This document shows positions 8,461 to 60,420 of a stretch of DNA of 64,000 nucleotides, one piece after another. The translations under genes were made by a program, and so were the position numbers. The DNA comes from Arctopsyche grandis. Taxonomy: Eukaryota > Arthropoda > Insecta > Trichoptera > Hydropsychidae. Position 1 is the first letter of the stretch; every line of letters begins with the position of its first letter. A model generated the notes under the pieces. The model searched no databases and had not been told where the DNA came from. It was given only the letters and a program-made list of their open reading frames with translations. The stretch is taken from positions 23,863,205-23,927,204 of the forward strand of contig NC_135361.1 of NCBI RefSeq assembly GCF_051622035.1, given 5' to 3'.

Positions 8461-9146
8461 ACGCTAATGTTAAATATGTAGGTTCAACGACTTTTGACAT
8501 CTTTAAAAGCGAATTCTTTAGAGCTTTGCATACGTGAGGAAAAAACGTTAGTGTTGACTGTTTTCATTATGTATTACATTTATATACAAGTGAACGTTTG
8601 TGTGTATTATACATACATATATACAGTGGTGTAGTGCCAAATAAAAAAGTACCAGGGCGGTGTTCAATTTTTACGACCCCCCCCCTTCCCCGCTTTTTTC
8701 CGTTAATTAAAAAATATGTATCCTAATATTGGTATTACAAACTTGGACACTAAACGCCACAAAGATGCTACACAAAGTCAAATGCACTCAAAGAAGTATG
8801 GAACGCTGTATACTTGGCATAACGAGGGAAGACAGGCAGGAAATAATAAGTAATGAAGAAGAAATAAAGAGACGTATGAAATTAGGATGGAGTGCATTTG
8901 GACGAATGAATGCGGTTTTTAAATCAAAAATGCCACTTTGTCTGAAGAAAAAGATCTTCGATCAATGTGTTTTGCCAGTGATGATGTATGGATATGAAAC
9001 TTGGACATTGAACGCCAAGTTGCTATACAAAGTCCAATGCACTCAAAGTAGTATGGAACGCTGTATGCTTGACACAACGAGGAAAGACAGGAAGCGGAAC
9101 ACGTGGGTGAGAAGTATGACAAGGGTAGTGGACATAGTGGATAGAG

Positions 9147-10055
9147 CAGTGGTTCTCAGGCGAAATTTTACCGTGGCCGCACACGTGATAATAGTGGTCC
9201 CATGGAAATGTCTGGTGGCCGCACCAAATTTAATCAAATAAATAAAATTTTAACATTTTGGTATCTATTTATTTAATAATAATGCAAATGGAAATTGCTC
9301 AATACTCCTTTCTTCCAATGCAAGCCGCATTGCTGATTCTAAGTTTGCGTCTTTTAGCTGGTTTCTAAATTTGTTTTTAATAAAGTGCATTACACTGAAT
9401 GATCTTTCGCAATATACGGTAGTGGGGAAAATAGACAATATTAAGAAAGCAATTGTTGCCAAATCTTTATATTGGTTTGTTTCATTGTCAACGTATGTTT
9501 CCGACCAAAATTTTTGAACCGAAATATTATTAAAATGGTTATTAAGTAGTTGATCATGACTAATTTGTAATAATGCATATTTTACGTTAGCCCAGTTAAT
9601 TAATCTCAATACTGAAAATGATTTTAATCTATTTTGTAGTACTATAAAATTTTCATTTCTCATCATAATAAAAAGGGAAGATATAAAAGAAACAATTTTA
9701 AAAATATTCAATTCTTCGAACCTTTTATCAAATTTCAGATTCAGAGATTTAAGACACCATTATTTTAAATTTTAATTTTGAAGTTGTGTCTGTCATATTA
9801 TCTATGAAATCACTCACAGAAGATAAAATTGAAAAATTGTCATTTTCAACTTCTGTCACAAGGCTTTTCGCTATAATTTTAGTTTGTTAATGATGAGCAT
9901 GGTTTCTATTATTGTTGAGTTACTTTTTTGTAGTATTTAAAATATATTTAATTTTTTTTAAATATTAGTATTATTTACTATCAAGTCGCTGGTGGCCGCA
10001 GTAAAATCCACTAGTGGCCGCATGCGGCCACCGTGGCCGCACTTGAGAACCACTA
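9147..10055 (-). mobile_element. hAT element, 909 bp, inserted in the RTE block
   Basis: Ends CAGTGGTTCTCA and TGAGAACCACTA (last base mutated). Exact 8-bp duplication GGATAGAG at 9139-9146 and 10056-10063. It contains the 3' end of a transposase; the rest is deleted. Confidence 0.85.
9265..9762 (-). pseudogene. hAT transposase, C-terminal dimerisation fragment
   Basis: Open frame of about 165 codons; the last 70 residues contain the hAT C-terminal block (DLATIAFLILSIFP, YCERSFSVMHFIKNKFRNQL, then LESAMRLAL), the dimerisation region. The catalytic core upstream is absent and a stop lies just before it, so it is a relic. It probably came from a full-length relative that could mobilise CAGTGGTTCTCA-ended elements. 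Confidence 0.75.
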
Positions 10056-11330
10056 GGATAGAGTAAAGAGATTGAAATGGTAATGGGCGAGGGAATGTGG
10101 CTAGAAGAATAGACGAAAGGTGGACAAAAGAAGTGCTTGAATGGTATATTTAGGACAAATAATAGACATGTCCGGTAGTAATGAAGAAAAAATAAAGAGA
10201 CGTGTGAAATTAGGATGGAGTGCATTTGGACGAATGAATGCGGTTTTTAAATAAAAAATGCCACTTTGTCTGAAGAAAAAGATCTTCGATCAATGTGTAT
10301 TTCCAGTGATGACATATGGATGTGAAACTTGGACATTGAACGCCAAGTTGCTACACAAAGTCTAATACACTCAAAGAAGCGTGGAGCGTTGTATGCTTGG
10401 TAAAAGAGATAAGACAGGAAACGGAATACGTGGGTGAGAAGTATGACAAGGGTAGTGGATATAGTGAATATAATGAAAAGATTGAAAGGGCAATGGGCGG
10501 GCCACAAAGCTAGGAGAATGGACGAAAGTTTGACAAAAGAAGTACTAGAATGGTACCCGAGAGAATGCAAAAGGGTAAAAGAAAGACCGCAAAGAAGAAT
10601 TTCCATTTCGCACCAGGTGGACAAAATGGAAAATGTGTGTGGTGAAATGGATGAGTGGGGTGCAAAACGGAGACGAGTGGAAGCGTGTTGGAGAGGCCTT
10701 CATCCAGCAGTGAATGGTGAATGGCTGTAAATGATGATGATGATTGGTATTACAAATATTTATAAAAAATCAAATGCTAATTAACTTAAAAACTCAACCA
10801 AAATGGTCTGAGTAAGGCTTATTATTTTTTTACAATATAATATACAGTTCTGAAAATTTTATATGATTCGATTTCGGCATCATTCAAAGTGTCTATAATT
10901 TTTTCAATGGGTTGTTTTAAAAAAAAATCTGCATTCAAATGGGCATTTGAGTGAGGATACCGTTATAGTCACCAAATTTTAAAACGAGAGTCTGCTCACA
11001 ATATTTAGTATACAACATTTTATATGAAATATACGCATAAATATGTTTTAATTGTATTCGAAATCAATTTTTATATCAAAGTACCAGGGCAGCAACCTGG
11101 CCCGACTACACCACTGATTATATAGGTAGAATGTTCGAAACGTCTTGGATGACGAAGTGTTTGCTAATTTTTTTCAATAACAAAACATTTCGATATGCAT
11201 CTAAAACTACGCATATAACTTATTTATTACAAGTTTTTTATTATTTTATTTTACTATGATGCAATTACGGGTTTTACCTTTGATAATAAACACCTATGGT
11301 ATTAAACTTGTATATACATATGTTATATTC

Positions 11331-18058: not shown

Positions 18059-18714
18059 TTCCCTGCGGTCTTCTTTTTACCCTTTTGCATTCTCTCGGGT
18101 ACCATTCTAGCACTTCTTTTGTCCACCTTTCGTCCATTCTTCTAGCTTCGTGGCCCGCCCAGTGCCATTTCAATCTCTTCACTCTATCCACCATATCCAC
18201 TACTCTTTTCATACTTCTCACCCACGTATTCCGTTTCTTGTCTTTCCTCGTTTACCAAGTATACAACGTTCCATACTTCTTTGAGTGCATTGGACTTTAT
18301 TTATCAACTTGGCGTTCACTTTCCAAATTTCACATCCATACGTCATCACTGGCAAAACACATGGTTCTTTTTCTTCAAACAAAGTGGCATTTTTGATTTA
18401 AAAACCGCATTTATTGGTCCAAATGCACTCCATTCTAATTTCATACGTCTCTTTATATCTTCTTCATTCCTACCGGATATGTCGATTATTTGTCCTAAAT
18501 AAAAATAATTATCGACTACTTCTACTATTTTATCATCTATTGTGATGCTATCAGGCATACAATAGTTATTGAACATTAGTTTGGTATTATCTATGTTCAT
18601 TTTTAATCCTACTTTCCTTCTTTCTCTGTCCAGCTGTGTTAGTCTGTTAAGTAAGTCAGCTGGATCGCGACCTATTAAAACTACATATACAATATACCGT
18701 CTGAACCAAACCAT
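18059..18714 (-). mobile_element. RTE-type LINE fragment
   Basis: Minus-strand coding remnant. The palm region VVLIGRDPADLLNRL has the YADD replaced. It is followed by DISGRNEEDIKRRMKLEWSA, PLCLKKK and, in another frame, RVKRLKWHWAGHEARRMDER and EWYPRECKRVKRRPQG. Frameshifts break it, and the 3' tail is missing. Confidence 0.75.
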
Positions 18715-21879: not shown

Positions 21880-22630
21880 GAAATGAAAATGGGTGGGTAA
21901 CGTATTGAGAAGAATGAACGAACGAAGTGCTAGAATGGTACCCGAAAAAATGTAAAAGGTTTCATCCACACAAAGCAACGCGTTTTCCCAGTGATTACAT
22001 ATGTATGTCTGTATGTACATAAGTATTATACGGTTAGTTGATATTGTGGAGATTGTGAAGAGATTGAAATGGCAAGGGGTGTGCACGTAGCTAGAAGAAC
22101 AGACGAAAGATGGAGAAAAGAAGTTCTAGAATGGTACCCGAGAGAATGTAAAAGTAAATGTAATACTTATGATAGAAGACATCCGTATTTATAAAATAAT
22201 AAGTGAATGCCAAGATGCTACACAAAATGCAGTGCACTCAAATGAACGAATAACGAGAAAATATAGGAAGTGGAACACGAGACTAATGAGTATGAAAAGG
22301 GTAGTGGATATACATAGTAGAGAGAGTGAAGAGATTGAAATGGCAATGGGTGGGTCACGTAGCTGGAAGAACAGACGAAAAGTTAACGAAAGAAGCGCTA
22401 GAATGGTATCCGAAAAAATGTAAAGGGTGAAAAGGAAACCGCAAGGAAGATGGGTAGACGAAAATTGGAAAATGTATGGGGTGAGATCATAGATATAGAA
22501 TAGCACTATATACATATGTATATGGGTGAGATGGGTGAGAGTTTTACAAAACAGAGACGAATGGAAGTGTGTTGGAGAGGCCTTCATCTAATAGTGGATG
22601 ATGCGTGGCTGTAGATGATGATGATGAAAT
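21880..22630 (+). mobile_element. Second iterated RTE fragment block
   Basis: Pieces at 21885-21960, 22035-22155 and 22200-22630 all repeat the AAATGG...GCTAGAAGAACAGACGAAA...CTAGAATGGTACCCG region. Only the last reaches the 3' end (GGCCTTCATCTAATAGTGG, then GATGATGATG). Sequence between the pieces is unrelated. Confidence 0.65.
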
Positions 22631-24513: not shown

Positions 24514-25366
24514 TTCAACACCCACGAAATCATAAAATACCCTCCGTTATTTTCAATTATTACCATTCCAAATAGGCAAGATGTACTCATCAAAGAAGAA
24601 ACTTTCTTATGGAACTTCACACATTTTCAACCATGAAGTTGCAGCTATCCAAATCAAGTACGCATTATTAAATCTATAATATATGTATTTTCTCACTAAT
24701 GTTAACGCATAACTATCAATTATATTGTTAATTCGAAGCAATGCACAGTTTCAAATCACCTGTCGAAATATAAAATGCACTCGCATTAGAGAAATAAACA
24801 ATTTCACGAGAAAATTCAGGTGAAAGTCTTGAATCGAATGCGTGAAATGAATCGTATGCGACATTAGTCGTGTATTACCTGTTCGAGTTAATGCCGTGTT
24901 ATTTTATCGAATACGTGCTTGGGATCGATCTGTGGAATTTGTTTTTAGGTAGTAGGTATACACACACACACACACACAATATACATATTATAATATTATT
25001 GAAAAGAGGTTTTAGACAGGGCGGGAATAATAAAATGTTCGAGAACCGGTTGCTCGTTCGTAGATAATGCGTATTTATTTTTTTATATGTATGTATACAT
25101 ACGAATACGATGAGAAATTAACCTACGATCCAATCTAATGTGTATAATAGTGGGTAGATAGTGATCAAACAGCTGACTAAAACTGTGCATGCGTATGTTC
25201 AAATTGCTTACAATCATAAAATACAGACATTGATTTCATTTTATTGATCATATGATAGAATATTCAGCACGAAGAGGAACTGAATGTATTTATATTTCAT
25301 TCTTATGTTGCTTAATATTTATAAACTAATGATGCTTTTTTTTCAATATACATACATACATATATA

Positions 25367-25795
25367 GCCAGCAGTGTGGCTCGGTGGTTGCGTTTTTGCT
25401 TAGCCCTGAGAGGTTACCGGGTTCGATCCCGTGCTTCCCGATATCCAATACTGCTGGTCAGATTTGGATATTTGTACTCCAAGTGGATCGTTTCTTATCA
25501 GAGTTTGCCACTTTATCTGATTTCATTGTTGAAACGGTTCCTCTATCAAATTGACAAAAATCATCCTAGCCGCTGTCACAAATATCCGAATTTTATTTAT
25601 ATACAATATGTAAAAATGTATGTACAAGTCTAAATACAGAGACTTCTGTGGATTAATTTTATTGATTAATTAATTGTTAAATTCGTGTTCTACAGCCTCT
25701 CTAAATACAGCGATTTATGTAATAAAAATTCTGCAATGTTTGTAATTAATTGTCTAGGAAGGCGCATCGGAGTCTACCTGTTAGGCCTTCCTAGT
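25367..25795 (+). repeat. tRNA-derived SINE, about 430 bp
   Basis: The head has an A-box-like TGGCTCGGTGGTTGC and a B box GGGTTCGATCCC, the RNA polymerase III promoter of a tRNA. The body (GGATCGTTTCTTATCAGAGT...) is followed by a 3' hairpin, CTAGGAAGGC...GCCTTCCTAG, and a TA tail. Confidence 0.85.
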
Positions 25796-29150: not shown

Positions 29151-29872
29151 ACATTAAACCTTGTTGACGCATCCGCCACATACCCACATACATAAGTACA
29201 TCGCGTCCGTTTTTATATATATTATATTTCTAAAGAAAGTGTAGGAAATCCTTAAGATAATCTGAAATTCGTGCAAAGTTATATGCTTTTGGGACACACC
29301 TCTCATAGATACAAGCAGCAATCAACGCAAATCAAAATTATCATGTTCACATACATGGAATCACACATTAGTTTCGCGGGTAGACTTGGACTACTAGTAT
29401 CTAAATTTAAAGCCGGAATAAACGATCATTAATCGATTAGCGTATCACACCTGACGCAGTTTCCAAACAACCAGGTCGAATCATGGCCACGATCGTCACG
29501 ACCTGGCCTTGTATCCTGGATCAACTTCGATAGTCAAATTTCAATATGTATATTAAAATTAACCAGTAAGTCATTTCGGTCAGTGTTCTCCTTCGAGCGC
29601 GTTTGACCTTTTCAAAGTCATCGGCGAAATTTCGCCGATTTTCAAACGTAGTAAATAAAAAGAAGAAAGTTCCTTTCGATTCGTTCGGAGGCGTTTGACA
29701 AATTGACGCCGATTGCGAATTTGAAACAATCGAGAAGAATATAATACAACCCACGCGAATGTCATTTATCATCCTACGAAACGTTCGCACTTGGATCGAT
29801 TCAAAATACAATAAATTCATTTTGACCCACGGAATCAATAAATTTTATATAAGCAATATAATATGGCCATAC

Positions 29873-30285
29873 AGCCAGCAGTATGGCTCGGTGGTTGCGT
29901 TTATGTTTAGCACCGAGAGGCTACCGGGTTCGATCCCGTGCTAATCTTTAATACTGCTGGTCAGTCTTGGATATTTGTGACTCCAAGTGGATCGTTTCTT
30001 ATCAGAGTTTGCCAACTTTATCTGATCATTGTTGAAACGCTTCCTTAAAATTGGCAAAAAATCAGCCTACCCGCTATGTCACAAATATCAGAATTTGATT
30101 TATGTACAATATGTTAAAATTTAAGTCTAAATCCATAGATGTATCTATGGATTAATTAATTAATCGGGTTATTCAGCCTGTCGAAATACAGCGATTTTTG
30201 TAATAAAAATGCTGCAATGTTTATAATTAATTGTCTATGAAGGCACATTGGGGTCTACCTGTTGGCTATTAGGCCTTCCTGGTAT
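29873..30285 (+). repeat. tRNA-derived SINE, second copy
   Basis: Same head (TGGCTCGGTGGTTGC, GGGTTCGATCCC), body and hairpin tail as the 25.4-kb copy, with good conservation over its whole length. Confidence 0.85.
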
Positions 30286-45722: not shown

Positions 45723-48700
45723 ATGGCGACCCTGTTCGACAGCCCGCCCGTGCGCGCGCGTCTGCGGCGCCTGGAGCCGGTGGGTGCGGGGAGCGGAGGG
45801 GTGGCGGGGGTGGGCGTGGGCTGCGACTGCACGTCCTACTCGTACCTCGTGCTGTCGCTGGTGCTCTTCGGCGTGGGGACGGCCGTCACGGTGCTCGCCC
45901 TCGGGGACGCCGACGGCCGCCTCTTCAACCACTTGGGCCACATGTGGCTGGTGGGGCCCGTCTTCATCTGCTCCGGCATGATGGTGGCCGTCAAGAGCAT
46001 GCTCTACCTGAGGAGGAAGAGCGTCATACAGATGCTGCTACATCAGCGGGCTCTATTCAGGGTATATTCGATTCCTTGTCATCTATTCTACTAAAATCAG
46101 ATTCAATTCAATCAAACGTCAGGTGTGCTATATTGACAAAGAATGGAAATGTATCAAAAGAGCGTATCAGCGCAGCTGATTATTTTGTTTTTGTTTACTT
46201 TGAGATATCTATTACTTTGTCTATCGACGTGGATTTTCACACATCTAAATTATATTATTTACTATTCCTCTTTCGATTCGTTTTTCCCTGAATTGTAAAT
46301 ATTCTATTTCTGTACGTATCATATGACTGAATTCTCTATTTGTCTGTTCATCTTTGCATTGTCTATTTCTTTATATTCATTCTGTTTATGGCTTTGGAAT
46401 TTCTCAACTGTTAGACTGTGTTTATACACAATCAAACCCTTACAATGATTGAAGTGTCTTATTGTGAATACAAACGAATGAAAGATCATATTTAGAGTAT
46501 TGACTGTTTTAGACTGCCGCTTTAGTATGCGGTCTACCTTCTCATATCTACTTTAGTATGCAATCTACCTTCACAGTTTTACTTTAATATGTTGTCTCAG
46601 TTCTCTCGTGTGACAGTAGCACCGACCTAAACAACCTAATCTTAAATGAATAGAGCCAACCTAACTTAACCTAACCTAACCCTTAAATAAATAGGTGTTA
46701 ACTGGCAAGATGTGTTTTTTTTGTGAAAATATTGATGTAATAAAACTTAAAATAACATATCTTAGCAGCCAACACCTATTTATTTAAGGGTCAGATTAGC
46801 TTAGGTTAAGGTAGGGTTGGCCCTATTCATTTAAGATTAGGTTGTTAGGGTCAGTATTTTCTTCACTACTGACGATATTTTGATAGAAATGCTTCGACAA
46901 CATTATGAGGCAGCAGGAAAAAACAGAAATTATAATAAACAGGTCGTTGCTACAATACAAATAAAAAAAAAAAACAGTCGACTGCGATTCAAAAGTAGAC
47001 TGCATACTAAAGTAGCAACCTTTAAAGTTTGTTTATGTATAGAATGAACTAGAAATTTGTCTGTTTAAATTATAAGAAAGACATACCAGTCACCACTCAG
47101 GCAAAACTAACGTTTATAGAGTCAATAAACATCCTAAAGTGTGTTTTATGTTAGTATTTCGTGTATTTATCTGTTTGTGGTTTCCACATAGAATGTATTT
47201 TCACGATGATATATTAATTTCCAGTATTATGACTAATACTCAGTATGACTTATCAATGAAAATTCGCTTGCATGTATACATAATATAAACATTATTCAAT
47301 AATCTATTTTTTCGTCTACATAAATGTAATTAAGTAAAAAGCGACTGTTATCGTTTGCTAAATAAATATGGTAGAGTTTATCTATTTTAAGAAACGTGCA
47401 TAATTGAGTGTTACATTGTATGTTTGTTGGCGTAAATTTATTTATCTCGAGTATATATTTTGTTATATGAGGAAAAAGTTGGTGTTAATAATTCTATAGA
47501 ATTTTTTTTTTTAAGTGTACAGAATTGGTTTCACAATAAGGCATTCGTCCAAAAGTTGAAGTAGGAAATCGACGCTTCAATCGATTGGATACGGTGACCA
47601 TAAATAATGTAGTCATTGAAAAATGAACTGATGACGTGAAGCGATTAATCTTCCATGCTCAAGTCTAAATCCAAATCAAAATCCAGCTGGAAATCAATAT
47701 TTGTATTGTCGTCTTCGCTTTTTGTCGTTTAGACTAGCAGCTCCTAACCTTTTATGACTTGCGACCGTTTCACTAAACTGTACCCCCCCCGCCAATTAAA
47801 AAACTTTATACAAAAATTATTTCATGTATAAAGTTGCTATTATTTATAATTATATTTTTAAATATAATAGACATGTCCTGGTAGTAAAGAATAAAAAATA
47901 AAGAGCCGTATGAAATTAAGATGGAGTGTATTTGGACGAATGAATGCTGTTTTTAAATCAAAAATGCTACTGCCTGAAGAAAAAGATCTTCGATCAAAGC
48001 GTTTTGCCAGTTATGACTAGTCACCGGACCCAGAAGGTGCCGCGTATTGTTCAAAGGTTGTAAATGCATTGTTAAAGGTTTGCCGAACATTTTTTACAAA
48101 GGATTTACAACAATGGAACAATGGATAGCACTGTGACTATCCTACCTCTAGTGATGACTTATGGATGTGAAACTTGGACATTGAACGCCAAGATGCTACA
48201 CAAAATCCAATCAAAGCTACTCAAAGAAGTATGGAACGCTGTATTCTCGGCATAACGAGGAAAAACAGAAGCAGAACACGTGGGTGAGAAGTATGACAAG
48301 GGTAGTGGACATAGTGGATAGAGCAAAGAGATTGAAATGGCAATGGATGGTCCACGTGGCTAGAAGAATGGACGAAAGGTGGACAAAAGAAGTGCTAGAA
48401 TGGTACCCAAGAGAGTGCTAAAGGGTAAAAGAAAGACTGCAGGGAAGATGGGAAATAGGAAAATGTGTGGGGTGAGATGAATGAGAGTTGCGTAAAACAC
48501 ACAGGAAGAAGCGTGCTGGAGAGGCCTTTATCCAGCAGTGGATGGTGAGTGGCTGTAAATGATGATCATGATTCACTAATCTCTCCTGGCATCTAACCAA
48601 AAATTAATAAGTATTTTTTAAGATTGACCTTTAAAGTGTGATCACTTGAAAGTTCAATTAAGTTCTACTTTTCCTCGATTGATTGTGATGTAGCTGTCCG

Positions 48701-56249: not shown

Positions 56250-56362
56250 ATTTTTTTTTTTTTTTTTTTTTTTTTTATTTATATATATTTTAGCTATCAA
56301 GCTAATTTAAAAAAAAAAATACATCTTAATTATTATACTTAACTCTAAAATTTATAATTAAC

Positions 56363-58510
56363 TTATATGTACTGTCCCTCACAGAGGTGTCTCTTCGCAC
56401 CTCGCAGGAATGCATCCATGTTTTTAGCAGACCTGACGCACTCAGGGAGGGCATTATACATGAGCACACCCCTGTGAAAAACACCCCCAGCCGTCTTATT
56501 CTTTCTTACTCTACTTACAACTAGTTTGTCCTTATTTCTAGTATAAAAACTATGTTTATCTCTATTCCTTATTATATAATCATCAAAATACTTAGGTAAT
56601 AACTTATGATCTAACTTATAAACAAAAGACAATGTACTAATATTTAGACTAATTCTAATACTCATCCATCCTAATTCATCTAACATACTTCTAATACTCT
56701 TAAATCTACTCACATTCAAAATAGCTCTCATAGCTTTATTCTGTATTTTTTGCATTTTTTCTAAATCTTGGCCACTAAACAAATTAAGCACAGTGGCACA
56801 ATAAACCACATGTGGCAAGACAATTGAATTAAACACTAAAATTTTACTTTTTTTACTTAAAATATTTCTTAATCTACATAATACACCAACTTTTCTAGCC
56901 ATTTTTTTTATTATATAGTCAGCGTGCATTTTAAAATTTAGTCCTGAATCTATGTATACACCTAAGTATTTTATATTTTCAACTTTTTCAATTAACTTAT
57001 CATCAATTCTAATTTCATTCAATATATTTTTATTTTTACCATTCAACCACATCATTTTTGTTTTATTCACATTCAACTTTAATTTATTTTCACACAACCA
57101 GTCATTCACATAATTTAATTCTATATTTAAAATCTCAGACATTACATCAACATTCTTTCCAATTATATATATCAATGTATCATCTGCAAACAAATGTATT
57201 TTACACATCTTAATTACCTTAACAATATCGTTTATATATAATATAAATAATAAGGGTCCCAATTTGGACCCTTGCGGCACTCCATGAGGTGTTACAAATT
57301 CAGAGGATAACACCTTATCAATTTTTACTCTTTGCCTTCTATTATTTAAGTATGATTGAAGCCACTTTAATACTATACCATTTATTCCTAACTTATATAA
57401 TTTTTGTAATAAAATATTCCTATCTACTGTCTCGAACGCTCGCTTAAAATCTAGAAAAACTGCTCCAACAACCATGCTAGATTCATCCATCGTCTCCATC
57501 CAATCAGAAACCACCAATTGGATAGCAGTTTCTGTTGAATGTTTCACTCTAAATCCAGACTGTTCCACAACCAAACAATCATTTATACTAATGAACTCTT
57601 TCAATTGAATCATAACGATTTCCTCCAGCATCTTCTCAACAATTGGTAACATATTGATGGGCCTCATTTCACTGGCTTTATGTGTGCCCGTAACCTTTGG
57701 TACCGGTACAATAGTAGACACCTTCCATGCATCCGGGACGGATCCCACTTCTAACGATTCATTTATTAATTTCAGTAACTGAGGTCCAACCATGTCCCAA
57801 GTGTTGATTAAAATATCTAGAGTCAATCCATCCATACTAGAAACTGATTTCATGCCCTTCAATACACCATTTAATCCCTCCATTTCCACTAATTTAAACC
57901 TTTCAAACTTATTTAAACCCAAATTAATATCATCATTCACACTATTATGCCTTGTTTGTATTGAATTAACTATATCATTCACACTATTGATGTAAAACTC
58001 ATTCAATCTTTCAACCATATCCTCTTTATCATTATATACTACTCCCTCGACTTCTAATTCATTCAAAGAAACATTTTTTCCCCCGGAAATCAAAGTTTTA
58101 ATTATTCGCCACATTTTTGTGGGATCTTTTTTTGCACCATCAATATTTCTTTCATGCCAATCCCTCTTCGCATTACGTAAAACATTCACACATTTATTCC
58201 TCTTTCTTTTATACTCTAACCAAGCCTTTTCTAATTGGATTCCATCCATAGCCTTAATAATTTTATATCTTTTATAACTAACATTCTTATCAACTAAGCT
58301 TTCCTTTACTTCCTTGGTAAACCAAGGTTTCAGCTTATGCTTATGCATGATTCTTGTGGTTTTTACGCATTTACTTTTAGAATATGTTATATTACGATAC
58401 ATTATCTCCCACATTTCATTCACACTATCACCATCCTTTCCCCATACACACTCCTTTAACAATTCATTCATCAATTGATAATCAATGTTTTCTCTTTCAG
58501 TCACCTGCAT
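56363..58510 (-). CDS. LINE ORF2 3' part, reverse transcriptase
   Basis: A 715-residue open frame. It contains RT motif LDFKRAF at about 353-359, GVPQGSKLGPLL at about 410-421 and the catalytic FADDT at about 441-445, followed by thumb and C-terminal regions (KYLGVYIDSG). Catalytic Asp residues are present. It is shifted -1 relative to the endonuclease frame and overlaps it by 10 nt; in related LINEs the two form one polyprotein. So this is either a single frameshift mutation or a recoding event. Product role: target-primed reverse transcription. Confidence 0.85.
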   Translation of the reverse strand: MQVTERENIDYQLMNELLKECVWGKDGDSVNEMWEIMYRNITYSKSKCVKTTRIMHKHKLKPWFTKEVKESLVDKNVSYKRYKIIKAMDGIQLEKAWLEYKRKRNKCVNVLRNAKRDWHERNIDGAKKDPTKMWRIIKTLISGGKNVSLNELEVEGVVYNDKEDMVERLNEFYINSVNDIVNSIQTRHNSVNDDINLGLNKFERFKLVEMEGLNGVLKGMKSVSSMDGLTLDILINTWDMVGPQLLKLINESLEVGSVPDAWKVSTIVPVPKVTGTHKASEMRPINMLPIVEKMLEEIVMIQLKEFISINDCLVVEQSGFRVKHSTETAIQLVVSDWMETMDESSMVVGAVFLDFKRAFETVDRNILLQKLYKLGINGIVLKWLQSYLNNRRQRVKIDKVLSSEFVTPHGVPQGSKLGPLLFILYINDIVKVIKMCKIHLFADDTLIYIIGKNVDVMSEILNIELNYVNDWLCENKLKLNVNKTKMMWLNGKNKNILNEIRIDDKLIEKVENIKYLGVYIDSGLNFKMHADYIIKKMARKVGVLCRLRNILSKKSKILVFNSIVLPHVVYCATVLNLFSGQDLEKMQKIQNKAMRAILNVSRFKSIRSMLDELGWMSIRISLNISTLSFVYKLDHKLLPKYFDDYIIRNRDKHSFYTRNKDKLVVSRVRKNKTAGGVFHRGVLMYNALPECVRSAKNMDAFLRGAKRHLCEGQYI

Positions 58511-59190
58511 ATTTTTAAGTCCTCCTTACTAAACCGCTGTCCCAAAAACATGTTGACAATAGAATGGTCTCCTATTCTCGGTACATCTTTCACCTCACAC
58601 CGCAGATCCATTATATTTGTTATAACCAAATCAATGAGAGAGCTTGATAAATTATTCACTCTCGTTGCTTCCGTCACTTTTTGTTTAAAACCCAATTCAT
58701 TTAACCAATTTCTCAACTTTTTTACATAAAATTCTTCTGTCTGTAACCAATTAAAATTCCAGTCCCCAAACATAATTATATTTTTACTCACATCTATACT
58801 TCTTTCACTCAATTCTTCTAAAAATTTAAGAAATCTTCCACTTCTACCATTCGGAGAGCGGTAAATTACTAGCAAAAACACAGTAACTCCATTCACAAGC
58901 AGATCCACACCAATTGTCCAAAACTCACCATCAACCTTATTAACTATTACATTACCGTAACTTAAATCATCCCTTAAATACAATAGTACCCCACCCGTAT
59001 GTCTAGAATTAGAGTCACATCTCAAAACACAATATCCATCTATATTCAGCTCAAAATCTTCAAAATCACTAGTTACATGCGTTTCACTTAAACCTATAAA
59101 TAATGGTTTTTGACTTACAGTTAAACTCCAAACCTCATCCTTGTGAGCAAAAAAACTTTGTACATTTATACCGATACCTTTTGGTGGTTG
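58501..59190 (-). CDS. LINE ORF2 5' part, AP-type endonuclease
   Basis: About 229 open codons follow the ORF1 stop in the same frame. Visible endonuclease landmarks are LSETH (near the start), YRSPNG, GDWNFNW, SSLIDLVITN and GDHSIV, which match the catalytic and metal or DNA-contact motifs of LINE APE domains. The endonuclease fold appears to begin within about 10 codons of the stop (INVQSFFAHKDE). No ATG precedes LSETH, so translation probably depends on ORF1. The frame ends at TGA 58503-58501, just inside the start of the RT frame. Confidence 0.8.
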   Translation of the reverse strand, partial: QPPKGIGINVQSFFAHKDEVWSLTVSQKPLFIGLSETHVTSDFEDFELNIDGYCVLRCDSNSRHTGGVLLYLRDDLSYGNVIVNKVDGEFWTIGVDLLVNGVTVFLLVIYRSPNGRSGRFLKFLEELSERSIDVSKNIIMFGDWNFNWLQTEEFYVKKLRNWLNELGFKQKVTEATRVNNLSSSLIDLVITNIMDLRCEVKDVPRIGDHSIVNMFLGQRFSKEDLKICR

Positions 59191-60264
59191 CTATATATTA
59201 TTATACTTAATTCTATTTCTCATTAATTCTATATTTCTTTTATATACACTGCACTTAGTGTCCAACGGTCCGTGATTTGTGTTCAAATTTAATTTTAATT
59301 TATTATTACTTTTAAAGCAATTATTACATTTTATTATTTTATTGTTACATCCCTCGCTTTTGTGCCCTTCTTCTCCACATTTCGCACATGTCACCTTGTT
59401 TCTACAATCCACCGCTTTGTGATTAAATCCGTAACAATTTAGACATCTTAGAATATTAATTTCTTCAAAAACCCTACATCTATCCCAATTTATATTTACT
59501 TTTCCATCTTCAATAAATCTTTTAAATGTATTGCAATCTACTTCCACTATCGCATTATATTTATTATTTTTTCTACTTTTCCATATTTTTAACACCTTCA
59601 GTTCACCATCATTTATAACTTCTTGATTTTGATTCATCAAACACTCAGCCAACTGTTCACTTGTAAGTTCCTCCGACATATCTACAATTTTAATTTTGGG
59701 ATTTTTTAATTCCCCTCTTTTAACATTATAATTCTCCCCTAATTTATTTTCTACTTCTTTTATTAATTTAATACTATCCTGTGCACTGTTACACGTTACA
59801 GCAATGCCCCCTTTACCGATTTTTTTAACCCCTTGTATTCCTATTTTTAGTTCCTTTGGTTTTATTAAACTTTTGAATTCCTCCTTTGTTTTGTCCGTTT
59901 CTTGGATTTTTTTCGGAACAATTATTGTTATGTCTTTATTATTCTTCTTAAGTGCATTTGCATAACTATTTTCACTCTTATTTACACTTTTTAAAATGTT
60001 TAATTCACTGTTGGTTTTTATTATATTTATGTCTTTTTGTATATTGTTTTTCAAATTTTTAAATTCACTTCTTAATTCACATATTACATCCAAAAATTGT
60101 TCCTTATCATTATTTTCATTTTCACAAATATATTCAACTAATTTTTTTACTGATGTAATTAAAAATGTCTTATTGTCATTTGATATACTGTTAGTTTTTG
60201 TGGTCAAAATGTCCATAATTTTTTTTTCAATTGTTATTACTTCACTTATGCGTTCTGATGCCAT
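59191..60264 (-). CDS. LINE ORF1, Gag-like zinc-knuckle protein
   Basis: A 357-residue, Lys/Asn/Glu-rich protein. Residues 40-100 are likely coiled coil. A segment at about 138-160 (KIGIQGVKKIGKGG) resembles the domain before the knuckles in insect Jockey/CR1 ORF1 proteins. Three zinc knuckles follow at about 274-287 (CLNCYGFNHKAVDC), 293-306 (CAKCGEEGHKSEGC) and 313-338 (CNNC...H...C). The product should bind LINE RNA and form ribonucleoprotein particles. It ends in UAG at 59193-59191, and the downstream endonuclease continues in the same frame without an ATG. Confidence 0.85.
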   Translation of the reverse strand: MASERISEVITIEKKIMDILTTKTNSISNDNKTFLITSVKKLVEYICENENNDKEQFLDVICELRSEFKNLKNNIQKDINIIKTNSELNILKSVNKSENSYANALKKNNKDITIIVPKKIQETDKTKEEFKSLIKPKELKIGIQGVKKIGKGGIAVTCNSAQDSIKLIKEVENKLGENYNVKRGELKNPKIKIVDMSEELTSEQLAECLMNQNQEVINDGELKVLKIWKSRKNNKYNAIVEVDCNTFKRFIEDGKVNINWDRCRVFEEINILRCLNCYGFNHKAVDCRNKVTCAKCGEEGHKSEGCNNKIIKCNNCFKSNNKLKLNLNTNHGPLDTKCSVYKRNIELMRNRIKYNNI

Positions 60265-60420
60265 TATTATACACTTAGAACGTACACATAATTATATATT
60301 ACAAATTTATTTTTAATTTTTTAATTGTTACAATTTCGTTGTCCAAATCGCCACACACGTAATCAACGTCTGTACACGATCACGACACTTTCTCAAGATG
60401 AAAGCCTTTCGCCTGTAAGA

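Follow-up and report, generated by a model that had tools for sequence, protein, structure and literature searches.

We suggest that a very young LINE of the insect Arctopsyche grandis (Trichoptera) makes its copying enzyme when ribosomes occasionally pass a leaky stop codon. The element is represented by one copy in the 64,000-nucleotide stretch of contig NC_135361.1 analysed here (the window), and its ORF1 ends at a UAG codon that is followed, in the same frame, by CAA CCA and then by the endonuclease. Considering the other copies of the family in the host genome, readthrough of the tobacco mosaic virus (TMV) type, yielding a fusion of ORF1, endonuclease and reverse transcriptase (RT), is probably the best explanation for this arrangement. 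The production of ORF2 is treated in the relevant passages of a review as still unsettled for several LINEs, L1 and TART among them. A conserved leaky stop would fix the ratio of structural to enzymatic protein in a LINE, as in retroviruses, and a fusion of ORF1 with ORF2 would tie the enzyme to its RNA-binding partner.

The LINE copy in the window

All parts of the element lie on the minus strand. The full-length non-LTR (LINE) copy extends from its 5' end to its poly(A) tail over 56251..60388, with a 30-base poly(A) run (56251-56280) closing it; the 5' end, 1194-1195 bases upstream of the TAG, is common to 22 of 29 compared copies, and several others among these 29 are cut shorter at that end. 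The Gag-like ORF1 (59191..60264) begins with the ATG at 60264 and ends in the TAG; by eye it has two CCHC knuckles and a degenerate third, and Pfam returned no match to an RRM or a zinc knuckle in it. The proposed readthrough site is the UAG at 59191..59193. It is followed by CAA CCA, a type I (TMV-type) CAR-YYA context (59185..59190), and by the remainder of a short linker (59167..59184), without an in-frame ATG, that leads to the endonuclease strand NVQ. The bases after the TAG read CAACCACCA and continue in frame into the 229 codons of the endonuclease (58501..59190; PF03372, E=3.3e-6), which are closed by a TGA ending at 58501. The RT frame (56363..58525, 720 codons; PF00078, E=2.3e-33) is shifted relative to the endonuclease in this copy.

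The succession of endonuclease and RT in ORF2 is the layout of an APE-type LINE, and the poly(A) tail together with the 5'-truncated copies is likewise typical of that class; the RT matches L1 and R2 chains by sequence. No target site duplication was seen by eye between the flanks of the element. The endonuclease gave no significant sequence match to solved structures (best E 0.14), and we draw nothing from its single-sequence AlphaFold model, which was poor (pLDDT 40.7). Possible membership of the Jockey superfamily, whose type I ORF1 has RRM domains and three CCHC knuckles, is a lead suggested by the knuckles of ORF1 and by the poly(A) tail, in comparison with part of a single paper (PMC4120745).

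A sequence-only reading of the window had drawn attention to this junction, describing the UAG at 59193-59191, the CAA CCA behind it and the 229 open endonuclease codons, all of which are indeed there. It had also held that the endonuclease fold starts almost at once and that no ATG precedes the LSETH motif; the PF03372 match does begin 9 residues past the stop (residues 9-163 on profile positions 4-173), and the earliest in-frame ATG is post-stop codon 140. The figure of 229 codons is correct as a count, but it reflects a frameshift of this one copy. In 29 of 30 young copies, all except the one in the window, no stop interrupts the frame behind the TAG over at least 726 codons, as far as the examined DNA reaches, and this frame measures 942 codons in many of the top matches among those listed by the genome search. 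The window copy is dead, its endonuclease and RT being parted by a frameshift, and since 29/30 young copies are open across that point we regard the frameshift as decay of this copy.

The family in the host genome

The host genome (475.7 Mb) contains at least 151 endonuclease matches, and as only 150 of 551 candidates were scored, all copy numbers given here are lower bounds. Divergence among 29 copies has a median of 0.28% and a maximum of 0.72% (406 pairs, first 1800 bases from the TAG, ungapped), and 48 of 137 junction matches sit in an open frame of 1308-1312 codons with one interruption, the TAG. The low divergence and these open frames with their single TAG imply that the stop belongs to a recently active element and is not a product of decay. 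The junction is exact in all 30 young copies, and the TAG is present in 126/137 junction matches. The other 11 cover a single side of the junction, are disrupted at that point (L067) or have no recognisable ORF1 end (L035, L056), and the one-sided matches L037, L054, L055 and L058 do have the TAG in their DNA. An open frame of 2893 codons in one copy is probably an artefact; the stretch upstream of it reads N.

For the wider comparison, junctions were found with tail patterns, which detect only stops starting with T and hexamers starting with C, with matching next bases. These patterns matched in 63 of the 77 loci examined, and the removal of three chance matches (L035, L038, L068) and two duplicates (L073 of L055, L074 of L072) left 58 distinct junctions. 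The 14 loci without a pattern match were 5'-truncated or rearranged copies (L031, L033, L040, L042, L043, L045, L046), one copy that a further insertion disrupts (L067), two bacterial contigs (L065, L066), and fragments resembling subfamily F (see below) without a junction, L056 and L077 being one place and L057 and L076 another. Scans of viral contigs with the RT and with the endonuclease alignment found no relatives, and two matches in bacterial genome contigs, at 28% identity, were not used. Because the scans of other contigs gave no usable relatives, every copy compared, and with it all of the conservation evidence, comes from one genome.

Conservation of the stop codon and its context

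The nonamer by itself is no more frequent in the window than chance would have it, with 5 occurrences of TAGCARYYA found against 4.4 expected; at a given site, its chance is ~0.0006 per stop triplet and that of the hexamer ~0.003 per TAG. Its weight comes instead from its conservation across diverged subfamilies. We sorted the junctions by eye into six of these: TAG CAA CCA is found in subfamily A, that of the window (43 junctions), and in D (3 junctions); TAG CAA TCA in B (2 junctions) and, with a longer linker, in C (4 junctions); and TAG CAA TTA in E and F (3 junctions each). Since B to F have few copies each, the support from outside subfamily A rests on 15 places. The stop is TAG in 58/58 distinct pattern-found junctions and CARYYA is kept in 56/58, the exceptions (L061 and L062) being single decayed subfamily A copies; in L063 the end of the hexamer has changed to CTA, which is still YYA. 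Between subfamilies, the nonamer varies solely at its two Y positions, and there only between C and T (CCA, TCA, TTA). It was this comparison of copies that the sequence-only reading had proposed, with a sense codon or another stop among the outcomes that would speak against readthrough, and neither occurs among the 58 junctions, where the pattern itself requires a stop starting with T and a hexamer starting with C.

Third codon positions vary while the UAG and its hexamer are kept, the contrast that this reading had proposed to look for: the third-position difference among the lineages A/B, D and C/E/F amounts to 0.45-0.56. Past the stop, dS is 2.0 and 1.9 between A and two D copies, 1.2 between A and C and 1.2 between D and C, and dN between the deep lineages is 0.26-0.35; synonymous sites are near saturation (dS 1.2-2.0). 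Subfamilies A, B and C have junctions of common descent, so that there are three deep lineages and not six. When five representatives are compared, the junction is the sole in-frame 9-base window, of 213, with at most two variable columns, all of them C/T. When three are compared, the junction qualifies every time, the qualifying windows numbering 3/234, 1/130 and 3/130 in the respective comparisons; the other equally conserved ones fall within the endonuclease, including one over its GDWN motif, which we take to be catalytic. The codon after CAA shifts between Pro, Ser and Leu with YYA kept, so that nucleotides rather than amino acids are conserved there.

Reading frame and start codons

Of 57 junctions measured from the TAG to NVQ (L063, its NVQ mutated, was left out), 53 are in frame, those out of frame being the three places of subfamily F and L058. 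The linker between TAG and NVQ is 24 bases (8 codons) long in A, B and D and 51 bases (17 codons) in C; three E copies have 45, 72 and 44 bases, the in-frame two amounting to 15 and 24 codons, whereas in L058 a run of A puts the frame out by a single base. A shifted frame or an ATG-initiated ORF2 at this point had been named beforehand as evidence against readthrough. Subfamily F does have a shifted frame and a possible ATG, and L058 is shifted by its one base; the other measured junctions are in frame. Shortly past the linker, L044, L070 and L071 have an extra T, and these are dead copies.

There is no usable in-frame AUG in subfamilies A to E. The first in-frame ATG lies at post-stop codon 140, 50, 113, 50 and 38, respectively, in one representative each of A to E, in every case past the first endonuclease strand, and none of the A-D AUGs within 100 bases past the stop is in frame. 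Subfamily C is a mosaic, the end of its ORF1 being near that of A (dS 0.18) and its endonuclease distant from A (dS 1.16); the switch point lies, by eye, ~27 bases past the stop, and the stop, the hexamer and the frame survive it. We lean towards a broader reading of the family, namely that this is an animal LINE lineage with a Gag-Pol-like fusion made by TMV-type UAG readthrough, in which the nonamer may have served as a portable in-frame module while ORF1 and ORF2 were swapped by recombination between subfamilies just downstream of it.

Subfamily F (L055, L072, L075) provides evidence against readthrough. It retains TAG CAA TTA, yet a linker of 46 bases in 3/3 copies puts the endonuclease in the +1 frame, and an ATG in the endonuclease frame stands 19-22 bases after the TAG. 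The F copies are badly decayed and have further frameshifts, several in number; L055 and L072 differ in the place of their ATGs, the F-like L057 has, by eye, ATA where L055 has ATG, and L072 and L075 stem from a single stretch that was duplicated. Either this subfamily uses AUG initiation or its copies share an indel in the AAT-rich linker. When the F start region was used as a query, with 140 of 140 candidates scored, no further F-like place was listed except C2:22852100. That place, L072 and L075 are decayed F copies, nearly identical to one another and spaced 64-74 kb apart along a single contig, which suggests a later duplication, and similar local clusters of copies are seen on C24 and C23.

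A proposed readthrough mechanism and its alternatives

With TMV-type readthrough, ORF2 (endonuclease and RT) would extend the ORF1 protein at its C-terminus. The majority of ribosomes would terminate at the UAG and release the ORF1 protein; owing to the CAA YYA context, a minority would take a near-cognate tRNA there, perhaps with glutamine as in the insect precedent discussed below, and go on in frame for 942 codons to give an ORF1-endonuclease-RT fusion of ~1300 residues, presumably the active enzyme. The host-genome copies support the readthrough that the sequence-only reading had proposed, and it is from their comparison that we infer its occurrence. LINEs are generally held to need little of their ORF2 protein, and a low readthrough level would for this reason suit the element. 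No excess of RNA structure was detected past the stop (z 0.55, and z -0.02 to 1.27 in 15 windows from five subfamilies, with simple shuffles). Candidate readthrough claims made from sequence can fail: according to the relevant part of PMC7175516, a reporter did not bear out the one proposed for gag-pol of Tca2, an LTR element of Candida.

The same arrangement could arise if ribosomes terminated at the UAG and then reinitiated at a non-AUG codon next to it, giving a free ORF2 protein, as has been proposed for mammalian L1. Unconventional initiation is held likely for L1 ORF2 in passages of reviews (including PMC5972666), and such a mechanism would tolerate the out-of-frame subfamily F. Nevertheless we consider it unlikely, since it leaves unexplained both the retention of the CAR YYA nucleotides while the amino acid changes and the keeping of the frame over four linker lengths in A-E. 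Silkworm SART1, as described in part of PMC5972666, offers a precedent for AUG-dependent termination-reinitiation, in which ORF2 would start from a downstream AUG, and Zorro3 of Candida is stated in the relevant passage of PMC1965478 to require the first ATG of its ORF2. The AUG of subfamily F, in the endonuclease frame 19-22 bases past the TAG, would suit this route, yet the position of the first in-frame AUG past the first endonuclease strand in the A-E representatives, and the other frames of the A-D AUGs within 100 bases of the stop, make it highly improbable for the family.

It might also be supposed that the UAG is an ordinary ORF1 stop kept by descent and that the hexamer and the shared frame are coincidental. 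All copies are after all related, the window has about as many TAGCARYYA occurrences as expected, and with only three representatives some endonuclease windows are as conserved as the junction. However, a hexamer with a chance of ~0.003 at a TAG, in a nonamer that differs between subfamilies only by C/T at its Y positions while synonymous sites are near saturation, renders coincidence quite improbable. Finally, a TAG with C as its next base would fit a 3' splice site, so the conserved TAG could conceivably join ORF2 to an upstream AUG in a spliced subgenomic RNA. The 30 bases before the TAG are A-rich, without a pyrimidine tract, and CAR YYA would be left unexplained, so that splicing seems scarcely credible.

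Comparison with known systems

UAG_CAR_YYA is given in the relevant sections of PMC3542737 as the type I readthrough consensus of tobamoviruses and others, with natural examples such as UAG-CAA-UUA and, in Providence virus, UAG-CAA-CUA. The LINE has the same stop and six-base consensus, subfamilies E and F having the very UAG-CAA-UUA of tobamoviruses, and no excess of downstream structure was detected in it; the signal is described there in RNA viruses, whereas here it stands between ORF1 and ORF2 of a LINE. The insect precedent is Drosophila dfr/vvl, which according to part of PMC13170385 reads through UAG CAA UCA, the nonamer of subfamilies B and C. There, altering CAAUCA lowered readthrough in S2 reporters and the nonamer was insufficient for high readthrough; glutamine was found at the dfr stop (PMC8417969, in part). 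Unlike this LINE, dfr is, in these accounts, a gene of the host that encodes a transcription factor, and it has in addition a stem-loop that boosts readthrough.

Among retroelements, the group 3 LINEs of Paramecium have ORF1 and ORF2 in a shared frame, as here, and their authors suggest readthrough of the ORF1 stop; these are ciliate elements, and the passages concerned (PMC5405496) describe no hexamer context or test. The soybean retroelement SIRE1 is credited with stop codon suppression in a title in the reference list of PMC7385966; by that title it resembles this LINE as a retroelement with stop suppression and differs from it in being an LTR element with an envelope-like product. SART1 and mammalian L1 have ORF1 and ORF2 on one RNA, as this LINE does; in the relevant part of PMC5972666, an overlapping stop-restart is described for SART1, and unconventional termination-reinitiation over a 63-base spacer is proposed for L1. 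Among the open-access papers that our literature searches listed and that we examined, none described CARYYA-type readthrough for a LINE.

Other observations

Two copies assigned to subfamily C, L034 and L053, have an A/B-like ORF1 and junction joined to an E-like endonuclease. In the D copy L032, the endonuclease is 60% and the RT 82% identical to that of the window element. Elsewhere in the window, 25362-25435 and 29869-29942 are 74-base repeats, 91% identical, with a tRNA-like look (GGTTCGATCC) and possibly the head of a SINE; ARAGORN found no tRNA genes in the window. Several old fragments at 8762-10743, 18059-18367, 21909-22627 and 47880-48571, lying in both orientations, belong to another repeat family and, read by eye, resemble the C-terminal portion of some other LINE.
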